Shown here: in pieces, positions 36,097 through 46,937 of the stretch
Layout of the letters: every line of letters starts with the position of its first letter
How positions within the stretch are numbered: position 1 is the stretch's first letter
Assembly (NCBI GenBank): GCA_038881895.1
Contig: JAVZOV010000005.1
Span: 1 to 64,000 of the forward strand
Length of the DNA stretch: 64,000 nucleotides
Direction: 5' to 3'
From: Thermoprotei archaeon
GTDB taxonomy: Archaea > Thermoproteota > Thermoprotei > Gearchaeales > WAQG01
The notes under the pieces: generated by a model
Seen by the model: only the letters and a program-made list of their open reading frames with translations
Told to the model about the DNA's origin: nothing
Database searches by the model: none
Made by a program: the position numbers and the translations under genes

Positions 36097-36291
36097 GAAT
36101 ACCACAAAGATTATTTAAACTTAATGCTCCTATCTACATGTTCCTTAAATTAAATTTGTTTTAATCAAGTGCTGAGGTAATGAAGTATTAAAGTTTGTTG
36201 TATGTTTTATGTATTTTCAATAAAGATTTGTTGTAATATTTGGAGAGTAGAGAATATAACTAAGATTTTGTTTATCTATAATAGAGGAGGT

Positions 36292-37275
36292 ATGGCAAAG
36301 GCTAAAGAAGATGCTGAGGTAAAAAAGGCTCCTATGTTATTAAGGGATATTGAAGGTATTGGGCCGGCGACTGAGAGTAAATTAAAGGAGGCTGGATATT
36401 TTACTATTGAATCTATAGCTGCAGCATCGGCAAAAGAAATCGCAGACTTGACTGGATTAAGTCTTGATAAAGCTATGGAAATCACTAAAGCGGCGCGACA
36501 GGCTCTTGGCATCAGTTTTATAACTGCTGATGAGTTCTACCAAAAAAGGCAAACTGTTGGTTATATATCTACTGGTAGCAAAACTCTTGACAATTTGCTT
36601 GGTGGAGGTATAGAAACAAAAGCTGTAACAGAACTTATCGGTGAGTTCGGTTCTGGTAAGACGCAATTATGCCATCAACTTTCTGTTAATGTGCAACTTC
36701 CAAGGGAGAAAGGTGGTTTAAATGGTAAAGCTGCTTACATAGATGCTGAGGGAACTTTTAGACCCGAGAGAATTATTCAAATGGCTCAGGCAAAGGGTTT
36801 GGATCCTAAGACTACTCTTAATAATATAATTTATGCTCGTGCATATAATAGTGATCATCAAGTTCTTCTTGTGAGAGAACTAAGAGAGAGGATACCTGAA
36901 GAAAACATTAAACTTGTTGTAATAGATAGTTTAGTTAGTCATTTTAGGAGTGAATATCCTGGTAGAGAAAATTTGGTTATGCGTCAGCAGAAGCTAAACA
37001 GACATGTTCACGATTTGTTGACTTTGGCCGAGATTTATGATGTTGCGGTTATTGTGACTAATCAAATAGTTTCTTCACCTGATGTGTTCTTTGGCAATCC
37101 AAATAAGCCAGCTGGTGGTAACATCGTTGCTCATGGATGTACTTACAGAATTATTATAAGAAAGAGTAAAGAGAACAAAAGAATAGCACGAATACTTGAT
37201 TCACCGATGCATCCTGAGATTGAAACAGTCTTCGCTATATCAGAAGAAGGAATAACTGACACCGAAGAAAAATAA
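36292..37275 (+). CDS. radA: DNA repair and recombination protein RadA
   Basis: The 327-residue archaeal RecA/Rad51 homolog has an N-terminal helix-hairpin-helix domain ([21 protein letters not shown]), Walker [10 protein letters not shown] at about residue 117, Walker [19 protein letters not shown] and the polymerisation/L2 region [15 protein letters not shown]. It catalyses homologous strand exchange. ATG 36292 is chosen because GAGGAGG at 36284-36290 directly precedes it and the N terminus [10 protein letters not shown] fits the family; the frame is open for 90 more bases upstream. No intein. A second, shorter paralog lies at 38617. Confidence 0.96.
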
Positions 37276-38616: not shown

Positions 38617-39396
38617 ATGAGTATGCTAACTATCTCAAATGTTAAGGTTGAGGGTATGAATGATTTACTTACTAGAGGGCAGATTAGCTTCATATCTACT
38701 GGTTCTAAAAATCTCGACACACTATTAGGTGGTGGTATTCCTACACATTTAATAACCGAATTTCATGGTGAATTTGGAACCGGCAAAACACAAATTGCTC
38801 ATCAGCTTTCCGTGAGCGCACAGCTACCCAAGAAAAAAGGAGGCTTGAACTCTCCAGTCATTTATATAGATACTGAAGGCACTTTTAGACCTGAAAAGCT
38901 TATTAAAATTGCTAAATACCTAAGATTAAACCCTAATGAGGTACTTAAAAATGTGCACGTGGCAAGTGTAAGAAGTCTTGAGCAGCAGAACGTCATTTTT
39001 CAATTATTACCATCAGTAATTAGAGAAAAGAATGCGAAAATTGTAATTGTAGATACTTTAGTAAGTAATATTAGAACAAGTGTTGATGAAAAAGTAGGTA
39101 ATCAATTATTGTTATTGAAATATTTAGGAATGCAATTGAGAATACTTAAAGAAGTCGCGTATATATTAGGAGCTGCAGTTGTTGTTTTTAATCCAATATC
39201 TATGATACCTGAGGGAAAGATTATCATGGTACCGGGCGGTTCTATGCTCAGCGAAAACATGGACATACGAGTATTACTAAAAAAAGTTGAGGGTATAGAA
39301 AACAATATTAGGGTTGCTGAATTGATTCAAACGCCCTTAACTAAAGAAGGATCAGTGAGATTTATGATAACTGAAGAGGGAATTAAAGATGTATAA
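38617..39396 (+). CDS. RadA paralog (RecA-family ATPase lacking the HhH domain)
   Basis: The 259-residue protein aligns with the catalytic core of RadA at 36292-37275: ISFISTGSKNLDTLLGGGIPT, Walker A GEFGTGKTQIAHQLSVSAQL, YIDTEGTFRPEKLIKIAKYL and Walker B KIVIVDTLVSNIRT. It lacks the N-terminal helix-hairpin-helix domain and the RadA L2-region residues. RadA paralogs (euryarchaeal RadB, crenarchaeal RadC-type) help load or regulate RadA. A TATA box (TTTATATTT, 38579-38587) precedes it. Its last eight bases overlap a small unknown gene, suggesting a partner. Confidence 0.88.
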   Translation: MSMLTISNVKVEGMNDLLTRGQISFISTGSKNLDTLLGGGIPTHLITEFHGEFGTGKTQIAHQLSVSAQLPKKKGGLNSPVIYIDTEGTFRPEKLIKIAKYLRLNPNEVLKNVHVASVRSLEQQNVIFQLLPSVIREKNAKIVIVDTLVSNIRTSVDEKVGNQLLLLKYLGMQLRILKEVAYILGAAVVVFNPISMIPEGKIIMVPGGSMLSENMDIRVLLKKVEGIENNIRVAELIQTPLTKEGSVRFMITEEGIKDV

Positions 39397-40450: not shown

Positions 40451-40650
40451 TCAGCAATTTCTGAGTAAGATAGATTTTTACAACCTGAAAGCCTCTCTCT
40501 TTAGGGCGGGGAGGAGGTCAGTAGGTGAACAGAGCGAGTAGTTTGAACTGATCATGAACTGTTCTTTCTAGTGACGAAAACGCTCAAAAACCGAGTAAGA
40601 AAGGTAATGAAAATTCATGAATTTCGCAATAGGCTCTTTTAGCTTTAATT
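40451..40650. mobile_element. IS607-related MITE-like remnant at the 3' end of the threonine-synthase-like gene
   Basis: Left edge TCAGCAATTTCTGAGTAAG then ATAGATTTTTACA matches the element at 23426 (AGCAGTTTTTGAATAG, ATAGATTTTTACA). The interior has ACGAAAACGCTC/CCGAGTAAGAAAGG and GAAAATTCATGAATTTCGCAA, parallel to 23560-23625. The right edge (CTTTAATTTTGG) runs into the last codons of the neighbouring gene. More decayed than copies A and I. Confidence 0.45.
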
Positions 40651-42072
40651 TTGGAGAGAGTAAGTTTTGCCAGTAAGTGTGTAGTATCTTCGAAGTTTTC
40701 CTCCAATTTCAACTTTTCTACTTATTATATAACCCATTTCTTCTAGTTCAGTTAGATGTTGATATACTGCAGGTAGAGTAAGTTTATAGCCTTTATCTAA
40801 TAGTTCGCGCCATATTTCATATCCGTACATCTCTTTGTGTTTAAGAAGATTTAGTATCATATTTTTTACAGAGCCTAGGCCACTTTGTTTAATTGAACGT
40901 ATTCGTATTAATCTTTTTATTTTTGGGCTTTCAATTAATCGCTCAACAAACTTAACATCTTTGAGACCACTGCCAGTGACTATATAAACTGCACGTTCAT
41001 CTTTGTCTATAATTTTCTCATCGTATAATTTTTTTAGACCTGCTAAAGCACATGCTGCAGCTGGTTCTGCGTATATTCCTTCGCTTCTAGCTAATAATTT
41101 AATTGCATCGATTATCTCATGCTCATTCACAATTAAAAATGTGCCACCAGATTTTCTTACTGCCTCAATAGCTAATTTTAGATATGCAGGTTTTTTTACA
41201 CACAGATCAGGTATAGCCGATTTTTTTGGGGTATCATGGATCTCATTCAAATATTTTCTTGAATAGATGTTTGCTATTTCAGAACAACCTTCAACCTGAA
41301 CACCAAATAATCTCACAGAACCTCTCTTAACAAGTCCTAAAGATCTTAATTCATTAAAACCCTTCCAAATCATAGATAAGTGCATGCCACTGGCGGTTGA
41401 TAATACAATAACATCAGGTTCACTCCATCCAAGATCTTCAGCAATTTCATATGCAGTAGTCTTTAAACCATCCGCAAAAATAGGATCAGATGATGTTACA
41501 TGATATGCATTATAAATTACTGGGATGACCATTTCTCTCTCTTTGGTTGTTGAAGGAATTAGCTTGGCTCCATACACTATCATTTGATATAACTTACCGA
41601 GATCTGTAAAGCCGGAAAAATAAGCATTTAATTCTATACCAGCTTTTGAAGCGTAAGCAGATAAAGATGCTCCCAAATTACCTACACCGTTTAATATCAT
41701 TTTCTTAACCTTAATATTACCGTGCTTAACAAAAGTAATTAACACAGAGCTACCCCTATCTAGAAATGAACCGGTTGGATTCTTTGATTCGTCTTTAATA
41801 TACAGGTGTTTTGAATTAAATAACCTACCCAAATTCTCGGCTTTCCTAAGGCCAGTATTACCTTCACCAAGAGTGATAGGAGGAATGTCATTATTTATTG
41901 GAAATAATGACCTATAACGCCACATGCCAAGATCCTTGCTAGGGAAACTAGTGATACTGGTATAGTCATATTCATAAATGACAATACCACCACACTTGGG
42001 ACACCTAGATAAGACTGGTATTTCAGAAAAAACGCTTCCGCACTCTGTGCATTTGAGTATGAACCTGTTCAT
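40645..42072 (-). CDS. Threonine synthase-like PLP enzyme fused to a PadR-like winged helix
   Basis: N-terminal zinc ribbon (CTECGSVFSEIP, CPKCGGIVIYEY), then a fold-type II PLP core with YIKDESKNPTGSFLDRGSS, where the lysine-like position normally forms the Schiff base. Here the Lys of the usual PTGSFKDR is replaced by Leu. Next come GVGNLGASLSAYASKAGI and the phosphate/PLP loop VTGSGLKD. The last 75 residues are a winged helix (MILNLLKHKEMYGYEIWREL, LPAVYQHLTELEEMGYI, RRYYTLTG) of PadR type. ATG 42072 follows three codons after a TTG. Fusion and missing lysine make a regulatory or altered role likely. Confidence 0.85.
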   Translation of the reverse strand: MNRFILKCTECGSVFSEIPVLSRCPKCGGIVIYEYDYTSITSFPSKDLGMWRYRSLFPINNDIPPITLGEGNTGLRKAENLGRLFNSKHLYIKDESKNPTGSFLDRGSSVLITFVKHGNIKVKKMILNGVGNLGASLSAYASKAGIELNAYFSGFTDLGKLYQMIVYGAKLIPSTTKEREMVIPVIYNAYHVTSSDPIFADGLKTTAYEIAEDLGWSEPDVIVLSTASGMHLSMIWKGFNELRSLGLVKRGSVRLFGVQVEGCSEIANIYSRKYLNEIHDTPKKSAIPDLCVKKPAYLKLAIEAVRKSGGTFLIVNEHEIIDAIKLLARSEGIYAEPAAACALAGLKKLYDEKIIDKDERAVYIVTGSGLKDVKFVERLIESPKIKRLIRIRSIKQSGLGSVKNMILNLLKHKEMYGYEIWRELLDKGYKLTLPAVYQHLTELEEMGYIISRKVEIGGKLRRYYTLTGKTYSLQN

Positions 42073-42343
42073 GATAATCAACTCACTATTGCAAAATCAT
42101 CATCTGCGGACGCATCAGCTAACCCTCTTCTCAACATCTAATTCAGACAATAAAAATATTCCACCTTTACTAATAAATTTTTATGTCAGTTTAACAAGAA
42201 ACTCTAAGCTTTAACTAAAGAGCGCTATAAACTAAAACCTTATTTCAGAATATTAGTTTATCAGTTTTGATTTAATAAGTGTGGTGTTCTTAATCTTAAG
42301 GGACGATAGTTTTAAAGGTTAGGTAATTATTATAAACTATGTA

Positions 42344-43861
42344 ATGTTTAGTAAGATACTTATAGCCAATAGAGGGGAGATAGCTGTAAGAATAATACGG
42401 GCTGCAAGAGAACTCTCTATAAAGACAGTCGCAATATATTCTCATGTTGATAAAAATGCACTTCACGTAAAATTAGCAGATGAAGCTCATGAAATAGGTG
42501 AACCTGAACCGTTAAAAAGTTATCTTAACATGGAGCGAATAATAGATGTCGCATTAAAATCTGGTGTTGAAGCTATACATCCTGGTTATGGTTTCTTATC
42601 ACAAAATCCAGTATTTGCGGAAAAGGTTGAAAAATCTGGGTTCGTATTCATAGGCCCGAGCTCTGATGCTTTGAAAAAAATGGGAGCTAAGTTAGAGGCT
42701 CGTGAGCTTGTTTCAAAATTAAACATACCCATAATACCAGGAACATTAAAACCAGTGCCTGATTTAAAAAATGTAGAGGAGTTTGTGGAAAAATTTGGAT
42801 TGCCAATTTTAATTAAACCCTCAGGAGGTGGAGGAGGAATTGGAATGAAAATTGTAAGAAAACTAGATGATGTAAAAACAGCATTTGAGATATCAAGATC
42901 AGAAGCATTGGCTGCGTTCGGCAATCCAGAAATTTACATAGAAAAATACATAGAAAAACCAAGGCATATAGAATTCCAAATTGTAGCTGATAATTATGGT
43001 AATATAATCCATCTCTACGAGAGAGAATGTTCAATACAAAGAAGATATCAAAAACTAGTTGAAGAAAGTCCTTCAGTTGCATTAAGCGATGAGCTACGTA
43101 AAGAAATGGGAGAAAGTGCAGTAAATATCGCTAAAGCAGCCGGTTATGTTAACGCCGGAACTGTTGAATTTCTTTTCAAGGATAATAATTATTATTTCTT
43201 AGAAATGAATACAAGACTACAGGTTGAGCACGGTGTCACAGAATTAGTTACTGGAATAGATATAGTGAAACTCCAAATTAAGATCGCTGCAGACGAGAAA
43301 CTAAACCTTGCACAAGAAGATATAAAACAACGTGGATGGGCAATGGAAATACGCGTTAATGCAGAAGATCCATTAAACAATTTCGCTCCAAACCCAGGAA
43401 AAATTATAAAATATCATGAGCCTGGAGGACCAGGGGTACGTGTTGACAGCGGTGTCTATGAAGGTTATGAGATACCAAGCTATTACGATTCTTTAATAAG
43501 CAAATTAATGGTGTGGGGTTCAACAAGATCGGAAGCTATCCATAGAATGCAACGAGCCATATCTGAATACAGTATCCAAGGAATAGAAACAACACTCCCA
43601 CTACATTCAAGAATATTCCATGATCCCGATTTTATAAAAGGAACAATACACACGCAGTATCTAAACGAGAAACTTGATTACTTTCTAGAAGAAATAAAAA
43701 CTGAGAGAGCCTTAAAAGCAGCCATAGCTACTCTTTCATATGTTAACATACCCAAAGAAATAGTAAATCAAAAAACATTAAAGTATGTAACCCAAAAAAC
43801 TAGTAGCATATCCCTATGGAAGTACTATGGTCGTGAAAAATTGCTTAAATCAAGACACTAA
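42344..43861 (+). CDS. accC: Biotin carboxylase subunit of acyl-CoA carboxylase
   Basis: The 505-residue ATP-grasp protein opens FSKILIANRGEIAVRIIRAA, has IHPGYGFLSQNP, KPSGGGGGIGMKIV (ATP loop), RHIEFQIVADNYGN, RECSIQRRYQKLVEE and MNTRLQVEHGVTE, the full biotin carboxylase set. It carboxylates biotin on the carrier protein with bicarbonate and ATP. The carrier gene lies 800 bases downstream on the same strand, beyond IS607 relics, and the carboxyltransferase gene converges on it. Substrate (acetyl- or propionyl-CoA) is decided by the other subunit. Confidence 0.95.
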   Translation: MFSKILIANRGEIAVRIIRAARELSIKTVAIYSHVDKNALHVKLADEAHEIGEPEPLKSYLNMERIIDVALKSGVEAIHPGYGFLSQNPVFAEKVEKSGFVFIGPSSDALKKMGAKLEARELVSKLNIPIIPGTLKPVPDLKNVEEFVEKFGLPILIKPSGGGGGIGMKIVRKLDDVKTAFEISRSEALAAFGNPEIYIEKYIEKPRHIEFQIVADNYGNIIHLYERECSIQRRYQKLVEESPSVALSDELRKEMGESAVNIAKAAGYVNAGTVEFLFKDNNYYFLEMNTRLQVEHGVTELVTGIDIVKLQIKIAADEKLNLAQEDIKQRGWAMEIRVNAEDPLNNFAPNPGKIIKYHEPGGPGVRVDSGVYEGYEIPSYYDSLISKLMVWGSTRSEAIHRMQRAISEYSIQGIETTLPLHSRIFHDPDFIKGTIHTQYLNEKLDYFLEEIKTERALKAAIATLSYVNIPKEIVNQKTLKYVTQKTSSISLWKYYGREKLLKSRH

Positions 43862-43900
43862 ATAATCAAAATCTCTCCTAAGAATGTTGGAAGCAGTGGT

Positions 43901-43970
43901 CAGCATTTTCAAAATAGACATGTTTATAGGTTAATTACATATATTTGTATAATGTTTGAAGCCCAGGATT
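43901..43970 (+). repeat. IS607 left-end relic (copy F)
   Basis: CAGCATTTTCAAAATAGACA then TGTTTATAGGTTAATTACATA and TTTGTATAATGTTTGAA, matching the start of copy D at 20572-20632. No coding part of the element follows; instead copy G begins at about 43994 in the opposite orientation. Confidence 0.65.
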
Positions 43971-43993
43971 ATTGATTCATCCCAAAACTAATA

Positions 43994-44525
43994 AGGTTCT
44001 AAGTTACGTGGTCTTTGATGGATGCACATAGCTTTTCCCTCTCGATTTTTCGTCGAGGGCTTTCGGGTGAACTCATGAATCCCCACATCTGAATGTTTTA
44101 CACTTCATCAGCCTGCCCCTCATAGGAAGCCATGCTTCTGGAGCAGAGGGGACAGGTTCTAGAGGAGTCCTTTGGATTTACATCCAAACCAAACCATTTC
44201 AGCTTTTACTGATATAATTACCCAATAAAAGGTGAGTGTACTCGAGCATGAATTGGAATGTTCTGGCGTTCCATTTGGAGGGTTTTCTGTTGTTTTTTCT
44301 TGAGCTGTTCAGAATCCTATTCTTGATGTTCTTCAGGTTTTCGAGTATTGCTCCGCTCTGTTTTTCTTTTAACTCCTTAGCTATCGTACTCGTTAACTTG
44401 TGCATGATATCCCTAATCCTATTCCTCATCACGCTCAGAACACTTCTTGGCTTGAATTTAGATAACTTTTGTATTCTTTGTCTCTTGATTTCGTGAACCC
44501 TATGCGCGTGGTAGAGTTCTCTCAA
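43994..44525 (-). pseudogene. IS607 tnpB remnant with right end and omega-RNA-like segment (copy G)
   Basis: On the minus strand the 108 residues at 44199-44525 (HRVHEIKRQRIQKLSKFKPR, then ENLKNIKNRILNSSRKN) align with the RuvC-domain segment of the intact TnpB ([35 protein letters not shown]). They end in a stop codon before the zinc ribbon. Downstream, at about 44010-44160, are the tnpB 3' end (GATGTGGGGATTCATG), the core GAAAGCCCTCGA...GAGGG and a right end AAGGTTCTAAG at 43994. A dead copy that kept the omega-RNA-like part better than the protein. Confidence 0.7.
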
Positions 44526-44664
44526 ATCGTAACGCTTTATTTTCCCATCTATGAGAGCTGTTGTGTTCGTCAGGTTTACGTCGAAAGATGTCCATTTCTT
44601 CGCTTTAGGCTTTTTTTATCAAGTTCTTTGTAAAAGTTTATTACTTAATTTTTTTTCTAGAAAA

Positions 44665-45198
44665 ATGAACATGACTTTAGATCAAAAAGAGTACAGGATT
44701 ACGCTCGGTTGGGGAGATCAACACAGTGTAAGTATAATAAAAAATGGTGATACATTACAAATTGTGGTTGACGGAGAAAAGATTTTCAAAATAGATGAAA
44801 TAAAAATCAAAAACTCAGAGATTTTAATGAAAATTAATAATGTTCCTTATGTAGTTAGATTTGAGAATTTGCCTAATGTTATGTATGTAAATGGTGAGTT
44901 ACTCCTTATAAAATCAGTTGAAGAAAGAAAACCAGATAGTTTAGTTACAAAAACTTCCGTTTCATCAATAACAACTCATGAGAAAGATTTAATAACGTCG
45001 CCGATGCCAGGACGTATAATAAAAATATTAGCGAAACCAGGCGTTCAAGTTAAGAAAGGGCAGTCCCTTTTAGTTATAGAGTCGATGAAGATGGAAAACA
45101 TTATATCATCTGACAGAGATGGTATAATAAAGGAGATTCTAGTATCATTAGGTAGTGTAGTGAACAGGGGTTCTCCATTGATAAGGTTTAGTTCATGA
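44665..45198 (+). CDS. accB: Biotin carboxyl carrier protein of acyl-CoA carboxylase
   Basis: The 177-residue protein ends in a biotinyl domain: SPMPGRIIKILAKPGVQVKKG, then VIESMKMENIISSDRDG, in which the Lys of ESMKMEN is biotinylated. The first 100 residues are beta-rich and probably hold it to the complex. ATG at 44665 is chosen because sequence upstream is IS607-derived, although the frame stays open. It ends six bases into the convergent carboxyltransferase gene. Separation from accC by mobile debris suggests an interrupted operon. Confidence 0.9.
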   Translation: MNMTLDQKEYRITLGWGDQHSVSIIKNGDTLQIVVDGEKIFKIDEIKIKNSEILMKINNVPYVVRFENLPNVMYVNGELLLIKSVEERKPDSLVTKTSVSSITTHEKDLITSPMPGRIIKILAKPGVQVKKGQSLLVIESMKMENIISSDRDGIIKEILVSLGSVVNRGSPLIRFSS

Positions 45199-46758
45199 GG
45201 GTATTATTCCGTGTTTTTTAGGTAGTCTGTCTTCACGTTTTGTGTCTAATATTTCAAGAGCCTTAGCTATCATGGGGCGTGTCATTTTAGGTTCAATCAC
45301 ATCGTCAACGAATCCCATTTCAGCTGCTTTATAAGGATTTGCAAAAAGTTTTCTATATTCTTCGATCTTCTCTTCTATAAATTTCTCTGAATTCTTAGCA
45401 GATTGTATTTCTTTCCTGTAAAGTATTTTTATTGCGGCTTCAGGTCCAAGCACGGCAATTTCAGCAGAAGGCCATGCATAAACCATGTCTGCGCCCATAC
45501 TTTTTGCGCACATTGCTAAGTATGAACCACCATAAGCTTTACGTAAAATTATAGTAATTTTTGGAACTGTCGCCTCAGCATAAGCATAAAGCATTTTAGA
45601 ACCATGTCTAATAATGCCACCATGTTCTTGTGCAGTACCGGGCATATAACCAGGCACATCAACAAAGGTAATTATTGGTATATTGAAAGCATCGAGGAAT
45701 CTGATAAATCGTGAAGCTTTATCAGATGCGTCAATATCTAGTACGCCAGCCATAAAAAGAGGCTGGTTTGCAACAATACCAACACTACGACCCCCTACCC
45801 TTGCAAAACCAACAACTATATTAGGAGCCCATTTCTCATGAACTTCAAAAAATTCGCCATTGTCAACTACGCGCTTAATAACTTCTTTAACGTCAAAAGG
45901 TTTCATGGGATCAGAGGGAACAATACTCTCAAGCTCAGTATCAATTCTATCAATAGGATCATCGCTCTCAATTCTAGGTGGATCATCCATATTATTAGAT
46001 GGAATATAACTTAAAAGTCTCTTAACTAGATTAAGGGCTTTTTCATCGTTCTCAGCAACGAAATGTGCTATACCACTTTTCTCAGCATGAACGTCAGCAC
46101 CACCAAGACTCTCAAAAGTAACGTCTTCTCCAGTAGCTGTTTTCACTACATCAGGCCCAGTTATAAACATGTGAGATGTTTTACGAACCATAATAACAAA
46201 ATCCATCAGGGCTGGAGAATAAACAGCACCACCAGCACAAGGACCCATGATCACAGCAATCTGAGGGACAACGCCGGAAAGCCATGTATTTCTTTTAAAA
46301 ATTTCACCATAAGCCTCAAGACTAACAACACCTTCCTGAATCCTTGCACCACCAGAATCGTTAAGACCAATAATAGGAATACCTAATTTGGCAGCTAAGT
46401 CCATCAACTTTATTATCTTCTTAGAATACATTTCACCCAGAGATCCACCAAAAACTGTAAAATCCTGTGAAAATATTGCAGCTAACCTTCCATCAATTTT
46501 TCCAAGACCTGTTACAACACCATCACCTAGATAACGTTTTTGAGGCATATCAAAATACGTTGACCTATGGATAACAAACATATCAGTTTCTATGAAAGTC
46601 CCTGGATCAACCAATAAATCAATGCGTTCCCTAGCAGTAAGCTTACCAGCTTCATGTTGCCTTTTAATACGTTCAATACCACCACCAAGCTTAGCCTGCT
46701 CCCTCATTCTCCTTAACTCCTCAATAAGCTCACCCATACTAGGCTTACGAGATTCCAT
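45193..46758 (-). CDS. pccB: Carboxyltransferase subunit of acetyl-/propionyl-CoA carboxylase
   Basis: The 521-residue crotonase-fold carboxyltransferase has the N-terminal KLTARERIDLLVDPGTFIE, IIGLNDSGGARIQEGV, IMGPCAGGAVYSPALMDFVI and the C-terminal VPGYMPGTAQEHGGIIRHGSK and AYGGSYLAMCAKSMGAD (each a known acyl-CoA binding segment). It moves carboxyl from biotin to acetyl-CoA or propionyl-CoA, giving malonyl- or methylmalonyl-CoA. Archaeal enzymes are often bifunctional. ATG 46758 is preferred over one four codons earlier. Convergent with accB. Confidence 0.95.
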   Translation of the reverse strand: MESRKPSMGELIEELRRMREQAKLGGGIERIKRQHEAGKLTARERIDLLVDPGTFIETDMFVIHRSTYFDMPQKRYLGDGVVTGLGKIDGRLAAIFSQDFTVFGGSLGEMYSKKIIKLMDLAAKLGIPIIGLNDSGGARIQEGVVSLEAYGEIFKRNTWLSGVVPQIAVIMGPCAGGAVYSPALMDFVIMVRKTSHMFITGPDVVKTATGEDVTFESLGGADVHAEKSGIAHFVAENDEKALNLVKRLLSYIPSNNMDDPPRIESDDPIDRIDTELESIVPSDPMKPFDVKEVIKRVVDNGEFFEVHEKWAPNIVVGFARVGGRSVGIVANQPLFMAGVLDIDASDKASRFIRFLDAFNIPIITFVDVPGYMPGTAQEHGGIIRHGSKMLYAYAEATVPKITIILRKAYGGSYLAMCAKSMGADMVYAWPSAEIAVLGPEAAIKILYRKEIQSAKNSEKFIEEKIEEYRKLFANPYKAAEMGFVDDVIEPKMTRPMIAKALEILDTKREDRLPKKHGIIPS

Positions 46759-46937
46759 CTCTAACACCAAATAACTAATTTACACATAAGATTTAACTTT
46801 ATATATGAGCGCTCAGAAAACTTAGAGCTTTAGCTCTAGGATAAATACTGAAAACAAGTCCAATCACGCAGGAAATTCGCTTTCCAGATACCCCCATACC
46901 CTCAAAATCTTTACAGACTTGCTATTTATAGAGAACA

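Follow-up and report, generated by a model that had tools for sequence, protein, structure and literature searches.

What does a protein do that has the fold of a threonine synthase (ThrC), ends in a winged helix and lacks the Schiff-base lysine? Such a protein is encoded on the reverse strand of our window, the 64,000-nucleotide stretch of DNA analysed here. The coding sequence (40645..42072) starts with an ATG at 42072, stops at 40645-40647 and encodes 475 amino acids in a single, unbroken reading frame. We propose that the protein is, with high probability, an archaeal transcription regulator, a repressor that responds to PLP or vitamin B6 and controls the supply of this vitamin.

The protein consists of three parts, all on the reverse strand. 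Residues 7-28 (41989..42054) form an N-terminal zinc ribbon with cysteines at positions 8, 11, 24 and 27. The Pfam matches of the ribbon are below threshold, and all four cysteines are nearly invariant among 42 fusions. Residues 66-367 (40972..41877) match the fold-type-II PLP-enzyme domain (PALP, PF00291, E 4.5e-54), the putative ligand sensor. Residues 401-467 (40672..40872) form a PadR-like winged helix: PF03551 matches residues 406-467 with an E-value of 8.6e-10 and a score of 38.9 bits, above the Pfam gathering cut-off of 27. The PadR chains 3hhh, 6abq, 6abt and 4esf are among the PDB search matches for the protein.

An AlphaFold2 model (mean pLDDT 87.9, pTM 0.78) shows a ThrC fold joined by a linker of low confidence to a winged helix of three helices and a two-stranded wing. 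The closest folds in the PDB are threonine synthases; for 2zsj the TM-score is 0.85 on target length (Foldseek E 5e-27). Identity to 2zsj and 2d1f is 32-33% over the fold, and the zinc ribbon resembles that of this genome's archaeal ThrC. An earlier note on this DNA had described a fusion with a PadR-like end, a retained zinc ribbon and much of the ThrC fold, and all of this holds. A frameshift joining two genes, which the note had named as a way to be wrong, is excluded, since proteins of many genera share this architecture from end to end. Among 398 genomes sampled from the phylum, at least 89 encode a full-length fusion.

The Schiff-base lysine of threonine synthases is replaced by leucine. 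The codon CTA at 41761..41763 (reverse strand) encodes Leu104 in the motif NPTGSF-L-DRG. Pairwise HMMER alignments with four structurally solved threonine synthases pair 'nptgsfldrg' with 'nptgsfkdrg'. The lysine column also stays aligned across 90 sequences (71 fusions and 19 unfused ThrC proteins), which settles the substitution that the note had suspected. Nor is this a one-off mutation. The column can be read in 86 fusions, and 84 of them lack lysine: arginine takes its place in 37, leucine in 26, threonine in nine, isoleucine in five and methionine in four, with valine, alanine and phenylalanine once each. Lysine is kept in two fusions and in all 19 unfused ThrC proteins, this genome's included. 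The remainder of the NPTxSFxDR motif is conserved in the fusions despite the loss. Hence the domain seems to be under selection, though not for catalysis.

No new lysine stands out as compensation in the alignment; the invariant K93, K204 and K371 sit in motifs that the aligned ThrC proteins have in common. The phosphate loop has changed as well: the window protein has TASGM where ThrC has GNAGN, and most other fusions have a loop of the GSGG or GTGG type. Leucine in place of lysine, the added C-terminal winged helix and the altered loop of the window copy all separate the protein from ThrC, and judged by the lysine it is not a threonine synthase. The other ThrC-like genes of this genome keep the lysine (NPTGSFKDRG, NPTGSFKDRP and NPTGSYKDRG). 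They comprise a canonical ThrC (L002) and two further proteins (L003, G000:C1:32378-33517; L004, G000:C1:554953-555957), whose own phosphate loops are unusual (ASGALL and SAGTLL).

An enzyme-domain tree splits the fusions into an arginine clade (39 members), a mostly aliphatic clade (27) and a small threonine clade (four). The window protein sits on a long branch inside the mostly aliphatic clade, and two lysine-bearing members are nested among the arginine members. The lysine-carrying fusions L123:4610-6022 and L127:4662-6074 read NPTNSFKDR and are without B6-linked neighbours; they are possible reversions or re-recruited enzymes.

The note did not recall a description of this architecture. 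It is widespread, however, and it is already catalogued: the NCBIfam equivalog NF004170 (PRK05638), named 'threonine synthase', spans all of it, winged helix included. A Thermococcaceae member with arginine instead of lysine scores 706.9 bits against this model, whose cut-off is 421. The window protein is matched over residues 6-473 and scores 285.6 bits, below the cut-off, as does most of the fusion family. The name implies catalysis. Because NF004170 fits fusions without the catalytic lysine from end to end, and the members encountered lack it, the name is probably wrong for these proteins.

The neighbours of the fusion point to vitamin B6. We clustered the neighbouring genes at 87 loci. In 48 of them the fusion has a gene for an ECF S-component (PF07155) no more than two genes away, either divergent or co-directional and downstream in an apparent operon. 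Five of these neighbour proteins match PF07155 with E-values from 2e-15 to 5e-33. The family profile has a single match in the PDB, 4hzu_S (E 3e-20), and this chain is HmpT, which was found to have pyridoxamine bound as its substrate (PMC4860826). Hence the partner both matches an S-component profile and resembles an S-component that binds B6. The PLP-synthase operon pdxS-pdxT is the immediate divergent neighbour of the fusion in three genomes from two families (G088, G122 and G197). Neither the tested B6 genes nor thrC are neighbours at 32 of the 87 loci, several of which are cut by contig ends. In one genome (G030) the S-component gene beside the fusion is split in two frames (L041:3583-4156) by a frameshift or a sequencing error.

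At 17 loci the S-component gene is followed by a gene for a HypE/ThiL-like AIRS protein, which matches the HypE, ThiL and SelD models, all below their cut-offs. Many genomes without pdxS have an apparent operon of fusion, S-component and AIRS gene in this order (L040, L045, L087, L091 and others). The window's own genome encodes an AIRS protein at G000:C2:125941-126942 (L083). Going by its gene context, the AIRS protein is a candidate for the missing archaeal B6 kinase. In one archaeal family, canonical thrC lies divergent from or close to the fusion (L092, L096, L097, L098, L100, L104, L110 and L057).

The fusion and PLP synthesis tend to exclude each other. Among the matches listed, pdxS occurs in 9 of 89 genomes with a fusion and in 178 of 309 others (odds ratio 0.083, P about 1e-16, with kinship between genomes ignored). 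For thiC, our control in the same sample, the association is far weaker (odds ratio 0.60, P 0.05, kinship again ignored). The exclusion recurs within the families f22, f38 and f17.

In the window the surroundings are different. The fusion and a biotin carboxylase gene, accC (42344-43861, forward strand), diverge from a common intergenic region (42073..42343). With accC begins a set of acyl-CoA carboxylase genes (biotin carboxylase, biotin carrier and carboxyltransferase; 42344-46770), in which the carboxyltransferase gene is on the opposite strand. Biotin carboxylase and carboxyltransferase can be dismissed as conserved partners: a divergent accC does not recur among fusion neighbours, and the sole neighbour cluster that accC matches does so through a shared ATP-grasp protein, which is CPSase-like. 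Elsewhere in the window, two Rad51-family genes lie 1.3 kb apart (36202-37275 and 38617-39393); one product is a RadA with an HhH region at its N terminus, the other a shorter paralogue.

The proposed targets of the fusion protein in this genome lie elsewhere. Both B6 loci are outside the window: pdxST follows a glutamine synthetase gene on contig C1, and the S-component gene is on contig C2. The S-component is orthologous to those next to fusions (E 1.5e-84 to the neighbour profile). The promoters of the two loci share CTTATGCATAAGCTAANNCTTATA. In the pdxST promoter this candidate operator is at G000:C1:223335-223360, 30-55 bp before pdxS; in the S-component promoter it is at G000:C2:395468-395493. 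Its form in this genome is CATAAGCTAA-NN-CTTATA. The 24-bp motif, with 22 fixed bases, has exactly two copies in 1.75 Mb when up to three mismatches are allowed, and both are perfect. Base composition predicts 1.5e-6 perfect matches, although it was these two sites that defined the pattern. A shorter motif has two genomic copies with one mismatch, at C2:304289 and C3:84060, near unrelated genes.

A weight matrix offers an independent check, and a stronger one than the two-copy count. We built it solely from fusion promoters of other genomes and excluded the window genome. In the aliphatic clade these promoters carry a pseudo-palindromic consensus of about ATATATAAG-N6-CCTATATATAG at positions -20 to -40. 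The matrix ranks the pdxST and S-component sites first in their 8-kb regions, with 16.7 and 13.7 bits; the next best unrelated site reaches at most 5.1 bits. In family f19 the same site lies between the fusion and pdxST, GCCTATATATAGGGTAATACTTATACATT; it and the S-component promoter of the window genome both contain TAATACTTATACATT. Repression is suggested by the position of the candidate site, which overlaps the TATA region. The overlap of the motif with AT-rich archaeal promoter elements counts against the proposal.

The pattern has gaps. The note had pointed to the fusion's own promoter (42073-42343) as a target, yet that region, like the rest of the 64,000-nucleotide window, contains no copy of the candidate operator. 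It counts against a B6 regulator that in the window genome the fusion lies apart from its proposed targets and that its own gene lacks an operator. In a genome of the same clade (G081) the pdxST promoter has no good site, at best a degenerate one; in another (G102) the contig does not include the pdxS promoter. A simple alignment of fusion promoters from the arginine clade showed no common operator motif.

Given its origin, the sensor might respond to a different ligand. A domain derived from ThrC could sense threonine or O-phosphohomoserine and regulate threonine biosynthesis, and the link to B6 would then be indirect, through the PLP that ThrC uses. In one family (f23, 7 of 87 loci) the gene divergent from the fusion is canonical thrC. 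However, at six of these seven loci the ECF S-component gene is also beside the fusion. The window protein's clade has no association with thrC, and in the window genome both copies of the 24-bp motif are at pdxST and the S-component gene, with none at the thrC-like genes. We consider such an amino-acid sensor improbable, and regulation of threonine alone is a weak proposal with a thrC neighbour at so few loci. In the family with thrC neighbours the regulator may also control this PLP enzyme gene.

The fusion could instead be a working threonine synthase, or another lyase or synthase, that uses an alternative catalytic base and carries the winged helix as a structural add-on. This is what the database name would suggest, and the pocket is otherwise largely conserved. 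In fold type I, PLP-fold enzymes with another residue in place of the lysine are known. Free variation at the position, from arginine to phenylalanine, nevertheless fits no alternative base. The genome also has a canonical ThrC, the gene context is that of B6 supply and the operator pattern resembles that of a regulator, so we regard a working enzyme as very unlikely. That the protein regulates the uptake of thiamine or of its pyrimidine HMP, instead of B6, is scarcely credible. This reading would draw on the breadth of the S-component family PF07155, on the likeness of the AIRS neighbour to ThiL and on the former belief that HmpT carries HMP. HmpT itself carries pyridoxamine, though (PMC4860826), the adjacent operon is pdxST without thiamine genes, the association with ThiC is weak and the motif is common to the pdxST promoter.

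A B6- or PLP-responsive regulator is thus the best reading because of the fused winged helix, the lost covalent anchor, the B6 neighbours and the shared operator. The regulatory role and the link to B6 are well supported computationally; the ligand, its mode of binding and the sign of regulation we infer. The note had proposed that the protein senses a PLP-like ligand or an amino acid and is not an ordinary enzyme. The family-wide loss of lysine, the neighbours, the anti-correlation with pdxS and the promoter motif support a sensor, and of the two ligands the evidence favours the PLP-like one.

The regulator might work as follows. The ThrC-like domain would have given up catalysis with its Schiff-base lysine and kept most of the cofactor and substrate pocket. 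It would bind PLP, a different B6 vitamer or an adduct of PLP with an amino acid, in each case non-covalently; for PLP itself, binding without a Schiff base seems rather likely to us. In a dimer, the two PadR-like winged helices would sit on an operator of the pseudo-palindromic ATATATAAG-N6-CCTATATATAG type that overlaps the target promoter. Targets in the window genome would be the pdxST operon (PLP synthase) and the PdxU/HmpT-like S-component gene (B6 uptake), and in relatives also the regulator's own promoter. Most likely, plentiful B6 would lead to repression and scarce B6 to release.

The proposed device resembles the bacterial MocR/PdxR regulators. The PLP-responsive PdxR controls a regulon that includes pdxST, pdxK and pdxU, and MocR regulators are reported not to be present in Archaea (PMC5320631). 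In both cases a sensor derived from a PLP enzyme is joined to a winged helix and tied to pdxST and a B6 ECF S-component, a likeness of function and not of homology. MocR/PdxR proteins have a GntR winged helix at the N terminus; the fusion has a C-terminal PadR-like one and no GntR match in Pfam. Their sensor is of fold type I and aminotransferase-like, while that of the fusion is a non-homologous, ThrC-like fold type II. Since neither defining domain is present, the fusion is not a member of the MocR family. Characterised MocR regulators bind PLP through a Schiff-base lysine, which the fusion has lost. Compared with the PadR family (PF03551), to which its winged helix is significantly similar, the fusion adds a large enzyme-like sensor.

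According to PMC9997740, the PdxST pathway is the only one that Archaea use; the sections drawn on here do not treat an archaeal regulator. Within the open-access literature we found no archaeal vitamin B6 regulator, no regulator combining ThrC with a winged helix and no fold-type-II PLP regulator.

On balance we find it rather likely that these fusions are a widespread, non-MocR class of archaeal B6 regulators, in which a lysine-less ThrC with a PadR-like winged helix senses free PLP, or an adduct of PLP and an amino acid, without a covalent bond and controls pdxST and a PdxU/HmpT-like ECF importer. If true, Archaea would have arrived at a device of the bacterial type, in which a former PLP enzyme serves as the sensor of a winged-helix protein, by starting from an unrelated PLP fold, and would have lost the defining lysine of PLP enzymes along the way. 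The database name would have to be corrected, and an archaeal family of ECF S-components would gain a substrate class. An operator and a regulon would be supplied, together with a candidate B6 kinase for Archaea that lack pdxST.
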